From: Notamacropus eugenii
Taxonomy: Eukaryota > Chordata > Mammalia > Diprotodontia > Macropodidae
Direction: 5' to 3'
NCBI RefSeq assembly: GCF_028372415.1
Contig: NC_092879.1
Span: 70,352,412 to 70,416,411, forward strand
Length of the DNA: 64,000 bases
Below, one piece after another: positions 11,065 through 51,146 of the stretch. Under the pieces are notes generated by a model that was not told the DNA's origin, searched no databases, and saw only the letters and a program-made list of their open reading frames with translations. Position 1 is the first letter of the stretch. Each line of letters opens with the position of its first letter. The position numbers and the translations under genes are program-made.

Positions 11065-11378
11065 GTGTGTGTTCGTCCTTCGTTGCTGAAGAAGACCACG
11101 CCATCAGAGAAATAATGATATGACTTGTACTTTGACTTTGTTTTGAGTGAGGGAGGGCTGTGCAGGTCACCAGCCTCACTTCTCCTCCAGAGCCATCTGA
11201 ATCCAGTAACCAGATATTCATCAGGATGACTGGAGATGACCCAGGATGAGGCAATTGGGGTTGACTTGGCCAAGGTCACACAGCTAGTGAGTGTCAAGTG
11301 TCTGAGGTGAGATTTGAACTCAGGTCCTCCTGACTCCTGCACTGGTGCTCTTATCCACTGCACCACCTAGCTGCCCCA
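11065..11378 (-). mobile_element. Full-length composite SINE (MAR1/WSINE-like)
   Basis: Reverse strand begins GGGGCAGCTAGGTGGTGCAGT and ends in the '...gaagaagaccacgccatca' type tail. TGACTATATTCT (11053-11064) and TGACTATATTTT (11379-11390) form an 11/12 target duplication. It inserted at the left edge of the RTE fragment. Confidence 0.9.
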
Positions 11379-15457: not shown

Positions 15458-15757
15458 GGGCAGCTAGGTGGTGCAGTAGATAGAGCACCCATGCAGGAGT
15501 CAGGAGGACCTGAGCTCAAATCTCACCTCAGACACTTGACACTCATTGGGCAAGTCACTTAACCCCAACTGCCTCATCCTGGGTCATCTCCAGTCATCCT
15601 GAGGAATATCTGGTCACTGGATTCAGATGGCTCTGGAGGAGAAGTGAGGCTGGTGACCTGCACAGCCCTCCCTCACTCAAAACAAAGTCAAGTGCAAGTC
15701 ATGTCATCATTTCTCTGATGGCATGGTCTTCTTCGGCAACAAAGGATGAACACACAC
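15458..15757 (+). mobile_element. Full-length composite SINE with perfect 11-bp target duplication
   Basis: Starts GGGCAGCTAGGTGGTGCAGT, with the tRNA-like B-box region near 15510-15530 ('gagctcaaatctcacctcag'), and ends in '...ggcatggtcttcttcggcaa'. ATTTTACACAC is present at 15447-15457 and 15758-15768. Among the better preserved SINE copies in the window. Confidence 0.95.
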
Positions 15758-15789
15758 ATTTTACACACACTTGCAACAATCTTTATTAC

Positions 15790-33823: not shown

Positions 33824-34550
33824 AGAATTCTTTGGACCAAGGGGCAGAGCCAATATGGCAGAGTAGAAAGATGCATATTCTCTAGTGCTTCCCCCACAGC
33901 CCACAAAATAACTGTAAAAAATGACTGTCAACAAATTCTAGAGCAGCAGAAGCCACAGAACAACAGAGTGAAAGAGGTTTCCAGCCAAAGGTAACCTAAA
34001 AGGGCAACATGAAAGGTCTATCTCATGGGATACTGAGTGGAGTGGAGCCCAGCCCTGGCCACACTGCACTGGGAAGAATAGTACCTGAACAGACCTCTGG
34101 GGCAGAGTTCTTAGCAGGGAGGGTCCCAGATACCTCAACCTACAAGCGACAAAGAAAGCTCCAAAGGTCAGTGTGGGAGGGCTTTCTCAACTGGATGAGA
34201 GGGGAAGGGGGTTCATTCAGCAATAGCCCCAGGCAACAGCAGCAACAGCAGCAGCAAACTGCAGGCATCTATGGTGGCCAGAAGCAACCTGGATCCATTG
34301 TCCAGGCAGCTCAGCTTAAAGCCTCTGGCAGTAGAGAGCAGCTGATCTAAACCTCAGCCCTGAATGATGGCCCCGCCCCCATTCAAAGCACCCAGGGAAA
34401 TCAAGCAGCTGAGTCAAATCTCAGCCCTGAACATGATACTGGGAAAAGGAGAGGCAATAGGACCATCCTCTTGACAAAGGATTCAGAAGTCAAGTAGCTG
34501 GCTGGGAAAATGCCCCCAAAAGGGAAAAAAATAAGACCATAGAAGGCTAC

Positions 34551-34683
34551 TTTCTCCTTGACCTGGGAACTCTGAAATTTGGCCACAATATTCTTAGGAG
34601 TTTCTCTTTTCAGGTCTCTTTCAGAGGTGATTGGTGGATTCTTTCAATATTTATTTTGCTCTCTGGTTCTAGAATATCAGGGC
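34551..34683 (-). repeat. Left arm of 133-bp inverted duplication inside HAL1
   Basis: Reverse complement of 35033-35165 with, by eye, a single mismatch apart from edge bases. It sits where the early part of ORF1 should continue after 'tagaaggctac'. Both arms share an ORF1 frameshift, so the source was already broken when copied. Confidence 0.9.
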
Positions 34684-35032
34684 TAACTCAATTGGAAAAA
34701 GAGGTCCAAAAAGCCAATGAGGAGAAGGAGGCTTTAAAAAGCAGAATTAGCCAAATGGAGGAGAAGGTTTAAAAGCTCATTGAACAAAATAGTTCTTTGA
34801 AAGAGAGAATTGAGTTCAGGGAAGCTAATGACTATGACATAAACCAAGCAGTTAAAACACAAAACCAAAAGTTTGAAAAAATAGAAGATAATGTGAAACA
34901 TCTCATTGGAAAAACAACTGACCTGGAAAATAGATCCAGGAGAGACAATTTAAAAATTATAGGACTACTTAAAAGCCATGATCAAAAAAAGGAGCCTAGA
35001 CATTATCTTCCATGAAATTATCAAGGAAAACT

Positions 35033-35165
35033 GCCCTGATATTCTAGAACCAGAGAGCAAAATAAATATTGAAAGAATCCACCAATCACCTCTGAAAGAG
35101 ACCTGAAAAGAGAAACTCCTAGGAATATTGTGGCCAAATTTCAGAGTTCCCAGGTCAAGGAGAAA
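35033..35165 (+). repeat. Right arm of the inverted duplication (ORF1 sense)
   Basis: Sense ORF1 sequence ('gaatccaccaatcacctctg', '...gtggccaaatttcagagttc'). With the left arm it forms a potential hairpin with a 349-bp loop. Confidence 0.9.
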
Positions 35166-35588
35166 ATACTGCAAGCAGCTAGAAATATACAATTCAAGTA
35201 TTGTGGAAATACAATCAGGATAACACAGGATCTAGCAGCTTCAACATTAAGGGATTGAAGGGCTTGGAATAGGATATTCCAGAAATCAAAGGAACTGGGA
35301 TTAAAACCAAGAATCACCTACCCAGCAAAACTCAGTATAATACTTCAAGGGAATAAATGGTCATTCAGTGATATAGAGGACTTTCAAGCATTCATGATGA
35401 AAAGACCAGAACTGAATAAAAAATTTGACATAAGAATTGACATAAGACAAAAGAAGTATGAAAAGGTAAACAGGAAAGAGAAATCATAAAAGAATTTCTA
35501 AAGCTGGACTGTTTATATGCCTACATGGAAAGAAAATATTTGTAACTCTTGATATTTTTCTTAGTATTTGGGTAGGTAGAGGGATTGT

Positions 35589-35591
<3 letters not shown>

Positions 35592-35634
<43 letters not shown>
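35592..35634 (+). repeat. (CA)n microsatellite within HAL1
   Basis: About 21 CA units downstream of ORF1. Confidence 0.95.
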
Positions 35635-35635
<1 letters not shown>

Positions 35636-35739
35636 ACAGAGTACAGGTTGTGTTGAATCAGAAGAGATGGTATCCACAAAAAAATTAAATAAATAAATAA
35701 AATAAAAATTTAGGGGTGAGGGAGGAAAACGCTGGGAGG

Positions 35740-36440
35740 AGAAAGGGAGAAATTGAATGGGGCAGGCTATAACTCATAAAAGAGATAAGAAAAATCTTGT
35801 TCAATGGAGGAGAAAAGGAAGAAGGGCAGAGGGGAAAAGTGAAACTACTCTCTCCACATATGGCTTAAGGAGGGAATAACATGCTCACTAAATTTGGTAT
35901 GAAAATCTATCTTACACTACAGGAAAGTAGGGGAGGAGGCAAGAAGTGGGGTGAGGGGATAATAGAAGGGAGGGCAAATGGGAGAAGGGAGTAACTAGAA
36001 ATAAACACTTTTGGGAAGGGACAAGGTCAAATGAGGGAATAAAAAAAACAAGGGGGGATAGAGTAGGATAGAGGACAATATAGTTAGTACTACACAACAT
36101 GATTATTATGTAAGTGTTTTGCGAAACGACACATATTTAGTCTATATCAAATTGCTTGCCTTCTCAGTGGGGATGGGGAGGGAGGGAGGGAGAGAAGTTG
36201 GAATTCAAAGTATTAGAAATGAATGTTGAGAATTATTATTGAATATAACCGGGAAATAAGAAACACAGGTAATGGAGTATAGAAATTTATCTTACCCTAC
36301 AAGAAAAAAGAGAAGATGGGGATAAGGGAAGGGTGGGGCGTGATAGAAGGGAGGGTACATTGAGGGAAGGAGTAATCAGAATGTGAGGTATTAGGGGGTG
36401 GGGAGAGGAAAAAAATGAGATGGGGAGAAAAATCGGACAT
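35740..36440 (+). repeat. Polypurine, internally duplicated HAL1 3' region
   Basis: Two similar units: 'aatctatcttacactacagg' onward (about 35906-36060) and 'aatttatcttaccctacaag' onward (about 36285-36440), each followed by 'gatagaagggagggta'-type purines. An L1-like 3' terminus ('ttgaatataaccggg') lies between them near 36235-36255. Confidence 0.7.
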
Positions 36441-37570
36441 GTTACAAAGTGATGTAAAAGCAATTAAAATTAAAACAACTGACTCAATTAATTACTGAGA
36501 CTAAATCAGAGGCATTTTTAGTTTGGGGAAAAGAATTTTAGTCTAAGTTTCCTAGAGGCAGATAACCTCGGGTAAAATTTGGCATTGATGGAAAAGTTAA
36601 GATTTTAATGGTAAATTTGATTTCATGATTGCTATTTAATCAGGAACTAGATCATGTATAGAAAGGCATATAAGCCACTTAAGACTTGCCTCAAAAGATG
36701 TTCCTTAGCTAATGTGAAATTATAGTCATATCTGAAACCTGATTATTAGAACTTGCTATTTTAAGGTTCTATGGGACTACTAACTGACTGTTCTTCTGAG
36801 TCTAACTCCAGGTATGGATAGCAAGTAAGGTGATCTGAGCCTCCAATCCATGATGTCAGTAAGCTGGTGAGATGCTGGTATGAACTGCAAAAGGTGATCG
36901 ATCTCATGGGAAGGGTGGGAGAGCAGCTGTTCAGCCTGGGCTCAGATAAGTTTCTCCTGACTCAATTTCCCCACTGACACCTGGCAGACTTTCAGCCTGA
37001 CTGAATGCAAGTGGACAATCTACTCCTGCCTGGAACTGACATGAAGTTGGGGAGATATTGGTTCCCTGCAATGTCCCTACTCTTAGTGGCAATTTCTTAT
37101 AGTCAAAAGGTTTGTAAGCTTAATACCAGATTCATTAAATTATAGATTGTTGGTAGAGGAACATCTGAGGTTAAGTCTCAAATTAAGTTATTAGGCTTAG
37201 GACTTTAGACCAACAACAATAAGTCTTTTAATTCTTAGCAATAGTGTGGAGACAATCAGGTCAAGGGCTTGTGAAGTTAGCACACATAGTTATTATGTGT
37301 GTCTCAGATGGTTAATGTTAAAAAAAAATTCATTTGTGGTCTATATTGTAAATGCTATAAGAGAAGTATCACCTGACCAAAAGTTGGAATTGTTTTATGT
37401 GATATGAACTGTGTTAAAAATGAAAAATGAAAAATAAAAAATAAATTAAAAAAAAAAAAAGAATTCTTTGGACCCAAATGTCTCAAATGACTATTATGGT
37501 CTCTTAGTTGGCCTCCATGCCTTTTATAACCCTGAGGGTCTTCCCCTTCCAGTTCGATTTTTTTTTTTAT

Positions 37571-50828: not shown

Positions 50829-51146
50829 ATGTGTATGTTCGTCCTTCATTGCCAAAGAAGACCATGCCATCAGAGAAATGATGACATGACTTGCACTTGA
50901 CTTTGTTTTGAGTGAGGGAGGGCTGTGCAGGTCACCAGCCTCACTTTTACTCCAGAACCATCTGAATCCAGTGACCAGATATTCATCAGGACAACTGGAG
51001 ATAGCCCAGGATGAGGCAATTAGGGTTAAGTGACTTGCCCAAGGTCACACAGCTAGTGAGTGTCAAGTGTCTGAGGTGAGATTTGAACTCAGGTCTTCCT
51101 GACTCCTGCACTGGTGCTCTATCCACTGCACCACCTAGCTGTCCCA
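50785..51146 (-). mobile_element. Full-length composite SINE with TG-expanded tail
   Basis: 'ttcattgccaaagaagacca' through 'gttaagtgacttgcccaagg' to 'ctgcaccacctagctgtccc'. A TG tract (about 50788-50821) occupies the tail. ACAGCAGGCATTT (50772-50784) and ACAGCAGACATTT (51147-51159) match 12/13. Confidence 0.95.

Follow-up and report, generated by a model that had tools for sequence, protein, structure and literature searches.

Template switching has already been published as a one-step source of hairpins, in the account given by PMC8794818. In great apes, the majority of the switch patterns described in PMC7954356 follow the order 1-4-3-2 or its mirror 3-2-1-4, which generate single inverted repeats, and the copied tracts of the gold-standard events reported there have a median length of 12 nt and a maximum of 128 nt. 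Templated insertions of the MMBIR type occur as human germline variants, according to the survey in PMC8421209. Twin priming of L1 elements, as outlined in PMC2837659, leaves two mutually inverted fragments inside target duplications. HAL1 elements, as characterized in PMC5322556, contain ORF1 only and have a poly(A) tail and target duplications.

The locus described here lies in a window of 64,000 nucleotides (the whole stretch of DNA that was analysed) from Notamacropus eugenii, and belongs to an L1-derived element with the following parts:

33824-33838, no strand: 5' target site duplication, 15 bp, identical to 37460-37474
33839-37459, + strand: HAL1-type (ORF1-only) L1-derived element, 3.6 kb, from the 5' region to the A-rich tail, delimited by the target duplications and the A-tail
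34510-35489, + strand: remains of ORF1, with L1 RBD-like and dsRBD-like domains, stops and frameshifts, recognised from Pfam profiles and reading frames
37460-37474, no strand: 3' target site duplication, 15 bp, identical to 33824-33838

The 5' start of the element is approximate rather than placed to the exact nucleotide, and the ATG at 34510 was chosen by eye as the start of ORF1 from the alignment of relatives. Matches to PF02994 (in 35073-35258, E 3.8e-05) and PF17490 (in 35259-35489, E 6.7e-09) were both above the profile cut-off. The L1-type ORF1, the poly(A) tail and the target duplications expected of a HAL1 are all seen here, and the distance from ORF1 to the tail is <2 kb, insufficient room for a whole ORF2. 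Two relatives (L036 and L037) are colinear with the window over 34681-37460, at 88%. The 5' region of the element also holds a direct repeat of 28 nt (34337-34364 and 34404-34431, 86% alike, 67 bp apart), at which the alignments of several relatives break. A DNA search of the plasmid collection gave no match.

The original prediction was that ORF1 contains a nearly perfect inverted duplication, and alignment of 34551-34683 with 35033-35165 bore this out: the two arms, of 133 nt each, are reverse complements with one mismatch (34594/35122), separated by a spacer of 349 nt. The parts of the repeat are:

34551-34683, - strand: left arm, an inverted copy of 35033-35165, from the arm alignment and comparison with relatives
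34551-34555, + strand: left joint, TTTCT, a 5-bp microhomology present both in the ordinary flank and in the right arm when reverse-complemented
34556-34680, - strand: unambiguous copied tract within the left arm, 125 nt, in place of about 200 bp of ORF1
34681-34683, + strand: right joint, GGC, a 3-bp microhomology
34684-35032, + strand: spacer of ordinary ORF1 sequence, 349 nt
35033-35165, + strand: right arm, the original ORF1 copy and the template, with place and orientation as in relatives

An automated repeat search of the window placed the arms at 34548-34683 and 35033-35168 (136 nt, 99% complementary, 349 nt apart). The 133-nt limits are the better ones, because the second mismatch of the longer version (34550/35166) belongs to the left flank and falls outside the homology. 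The longest strictly exact run between the arms is 89 nt. Among exact inverted pairs no more than 1.5 kb apart, the runner-up in the real window is an AT repeat of 25 nt, and the maximum in 20 mononucleotide shuffles of the window was 12-15 nt. A more distant inverted pair of 214 nt at 93% (15546-15759 and 50829-51042) has further matches near 11132, 45838 and 46371, apparently as part of a dispersed family of short repeats.

The locus was compared with two sets of relatives. The first consisted of 28 loci out of 38 other copies (40 matches listed), chosen by their similarity to the arm; the second consisted of 29 loci out of 39 other copies (41 matches listed), the best-scoring over 877 bp, at 91-93% identity to the window over that length. 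The first look gave 4418 and 9646 candidates, of which the best 40 were scored, so that these figures carry no genome copy number. The 57 relatives (28 + 29) shared no 200-base word between the two sets when sampled every 200 bases. One locus (L024, reverse-complemented) has a long run of N from about 1765, either a gap or withheld sequence, and its comparison was limited to the part before that run.

In the relatives, the ordinary ORF1 continues from the left flank (15 of the 28 first-set copies inspected). The distance from the left to the right flank, measured from local alignments extrapolated to the flank ends, was 193-213 bp in all 29 best-scoring relatives (208 in 12 of them), compared to 133 in the window. 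Therefore, about 200 bp was lost here and about 125 bp was gained in reverse from 35036-35160. This agrees with the earlier suggestion that the early part of ORF1 had been replaced: all 29 best-scoring relatives retain the ordinary stretch that is absent from the window copy. The spacer differs from the majority of the same relatives at 7 of 348 sites.

Over 34461-34772 the ORF1 frame stays open through both joints, and the inverted insert has no in-frame stop. Assuming 208 bp originally, the length changed by -75, a multiple of three. The open frame is apparently due to chance; ORF1 closes shortly downstream of the insert. Near the end of ORF1, about 18 nt (35430-35447) are unlike the relatives and form a tandem-like GACATAAGA repeat, most of the changed letters being present in 0 of the 29 relatives. 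Slippage may account for this cluster, or a further small template switch that perhaps belonged to the same event as the inverted arm.

The inverted arrangement appears to be private and the result of a single event, not part of a spreading hairpin family. With as many as 3 mismatches allowed, a search of the 3.4-Gb genome gave one match for each 30-nt joint and none for the reversed control of each joint. Searching the genome with the joints had been proposed as the way to separate a private event from a mobile, hairpin-bearing HAL1 subfamily, and the single match per joint is the outcome foreseen for the former. None of the 57 fetched relatives matched either joint at the same tolerance, under which the normal junctions were recognised locally in most of them (left, 50/57; right, 47/57). 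A hairpin subfamily of similar age is thus unlikely. Furthermore, inverted pairs of at least 20 nt were absent from the 28 loci (with low-complexity words filtered) and from the 29 loci, except for the N runs of L024. In favour of a mobile subfamily, the predicted fold of a transcript of 34541-35175 is very strong (-312 kcal/mol, compared to a mean of -138 for 20 shuffles; z -27.8), but a strong stem would be expected of any such repeat. For this genome, searched at up to 3 mismatches, we regard the chance of such a subfamily as next to negligible.

The template of the inverted arm can be traced through changes that both arms carry. One base is missing just after 35091 in each arm; the original prediction had recognised the same ORF1 frameshift on both sides. 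The relatives mostly have a C at this position (27 of the 29 best-scoring), and the gap occurs in 0 of these 29. The frameshift is not certainly private, since two of the 28 arm-selected copies have a gap in that column. An A at 35056, also found in both arms, occurs in one of the 29 relatives; a C at 35034, likewise in both, occurs in 12 of 29 and is uninformative. The arms are 99% identical to each other and at most 97% identical to any other copy among the matches listed. Together with the rare variants just after 35091 and at 35056, this indicates that the inverted fragment was copied from its own locus, and shows that the frameshift predates the copying of the arm.

The arrangement of the joints follows the four-point scheme of a template switch: the left flank runs to point 1, the inverted tract from point 2 to point 3, and the right flank resumes at point 4, relative to an ancestral order of 1-4-3-2, and the uninverted arrangement is present in all 29 best-scoring relatives. 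Template switching had been put forward as one candidate, and both the order of the joints and the microhomology at each of them (5 nt, TTTCT; 3 nt, GGC) fit it, even if matches of 3-5 nt could be partly due to chance. In the left-to-right direction, point 2 is ahead of point 1, corresponding to an inter-strand switch by the logic set out in PMC7954356; read from right to left, the nascent strand can have folded back on itself.

With the structure, the coupled loss and inverted copy, the words at the joints and the single match per joint directly observed, our preferred reading, to which we give a probability of roughly 0.7, is a single germline template-switch mutation within a HAL1 copy that had by then been inserted and broken. 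A DNA polymerase, either at a replication fork or in break repair of the MMBIR type, would have quit its template at TTTCT, copied about 125 nt of the opposite strand backwards (35160 to 35036), and rejoined the original template at GGC, skipping about 200 bp of ORF1. The result would have been a pair of inverted arms with 349 nt between them. In the opposite reading direction, fold-back of the nascent strand would give an identical product. The event is placed, provisionally, after insertion.

Twin priming had also been offered as an explanation. In the description of PMC2837659, it yields inverted elements that have lost internal sequence and are enclosed by target duplications, and in that respect it would suit this element. 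However, its product as described there consists of two fragments inverted to each other, whereas this element has an inverted second copy placed between a sense 5' end and a sense 3' part. Here, a 5' region in sense (33841-34555), alignable with relatives, still precedes the inverted block, and the element keeps this orientation all the way to the target duplication; twin priming is therefore unsupported and, in our estimate, highly improbable. A twin-primed L1 insertion was rejected as a candidate on the same ground, since the inverted fragment would have to be on the 5' side.

Hairpin and chimeric-read artefacts are familiar from sequencing libraries and assemblies, and we considered whether the repeat could be one of them. 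However, one site distinguishes the arms (34594/35122), and the joint omits about 200 bp before rejoining the element, a pattern unexpected for a simple fold-back read artefact; in addition, the locus lies within a 103-Mb contig. We consider an artefact very unlikely.

An origin during insertion is harder to set aside. At that stage, an L1 reverse transcriptase could have switched templates, the first-strand cDNA folding back, copying about 125 nt of itself and rejoining the RNA upstream. The geometry would be identical to that of the later event, and mobilisation in trans could have used RNA from a source that was already frameshifted. Such a source frameshift would, however, be expected in relatives, and it was found in none of the 29 best-scoring copies, although two of the 28 arm-selected copies have a gap at that column.

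The number of differences between the arms bears on the timing, since arms made at insertion would have diverged along with the rest of the element. They differ at one site only, 34594/35122. Three estimates of the element's divergence were made from 1976 non-arm sites, with 35425-35454 omitted and with 25 of the 29 relatives in the tail comparison, giving 1.7% (changes in no relative), 2.9% (changes in at most one) and 4.1% (ML terminal branch). From these whole-element values, 4.3, 7.2 and 10.1 differences would be expected for arms that date from the insertion, and the probability of one or fewer would be 0.07, 0.006 and 0.0004, respectively. The omitted stretch holds the cluster of apparent private changes at 35430-35447, which inflated the divergence when it was included; the ML terminal branch was 4.1% with and without 35425-35454 (P 0.0004 in both cases). 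With the estimate confined to the 730 ORF1 sites flanking the arms, the divergence was 1.0% and 1.9%, the expected differences were 2.4 and 4.8, and P was 0.31 and 0.048. Private changes were found at 7 of these 730 sites, compared to 27 of 1246 tail sites; the lower rate beside the arms therefore makes for a weaker test (P 0.31), and at 1.0% a single arm difference is not unusual for an origin at insertion. Among the relatives chosen over 877 bp, the divergence was 4.81% in the arm region and 4.92% and 4.54% in its surroundings.

The changes common to both arms, set against the one that is unshared, suggest that the event came late in the life of the element. The ML fraction of that life elapsed before the event was 0.78-0.86; the flat-prior 95% intervals fell within 0.27-0.97 when the shared changes were counted and within 0.08-0.98 when they were not. 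The divergence of the arm among the 28 first-set copies was tried as a clock and rejected, because these copies had been picked for their likeness to the arm and would understate its divergence; their terminal branch of 5.05% was left out of the final dating. On these sequence comparisons, an origin of the inverted arm after insertion is favoured, weakly to moderately.

Gene conversion between the arms offers a variant of the reverse-transcriptase account. Inverted arms this close can convert, and an inversion made at insertion, followed by conversion that erased the differences, would yield the same picture as a later origin; it requires an extra step, and we consider it quite unlikely. Even with this variant included, an insertion-time switch by the reverse transcriptase seems to us rather unlikely. 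The original prediction had suggested an event during insertion, and this part of it is disfavoured (one arm difference against 2.4-10.1 predicted; P 0.31-0.0004).

No function of the inverted repeat is indicated. One could imagine that the locus is transcribed and the 130-bp stem diced to small RNAs against live HAL1 or L1 ORF1 transcripts, in which case a one-step template switch would have created a natural antisense-silencing hairpin, but we attach very little credence to this idea. Rather, the locus is of interest as a clean case of a long template switch that would have produced a nearly perfect 133-bp stem in one step, and as an example that an inverted block inside an L1 relative need not come from twin priming.

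Compared with the systems described previously, the locus most resembles the short-range template switches of PMC7954356, as they are presented there, with which it shares the order of the switch points, the single inverted repeat and a neighbouring tract copied in reverse. Net shortening, seen here, also accompanies 29.5% of the gold-standard events in that report. The 349-nt spacer and the L1-related host differ from the events it describes, and the tract of 125 nt is far from the median of 12, but close to the largest one reported for great apes (128 nt), and ranks among the longest of the known short-range events. An inverted copy near its template and junction microhomology are likewise seen in MMBIR-type templated insertions (MMB-TI), as surveyed in PMC8421209. 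The templates considered in that survey were those within 100 bp of the insertion; at our locus the template is found further off, past the right joint by about 355-480 bp, and the copy has lost about 200 bp. The twin-primed L1 inversions of PMC2837659, in the form outlined there, also combine an inverted segment with missing L1 sequence between target duplications; unlike them, the locus retains a sense 5' end and carries its inverted block as an additional, centrally placed copy. The inverted repeat is probably a private template-switch scar, likely acquired after insertion by a broken element, and stands out for its size within a kind of mutation that is already known.
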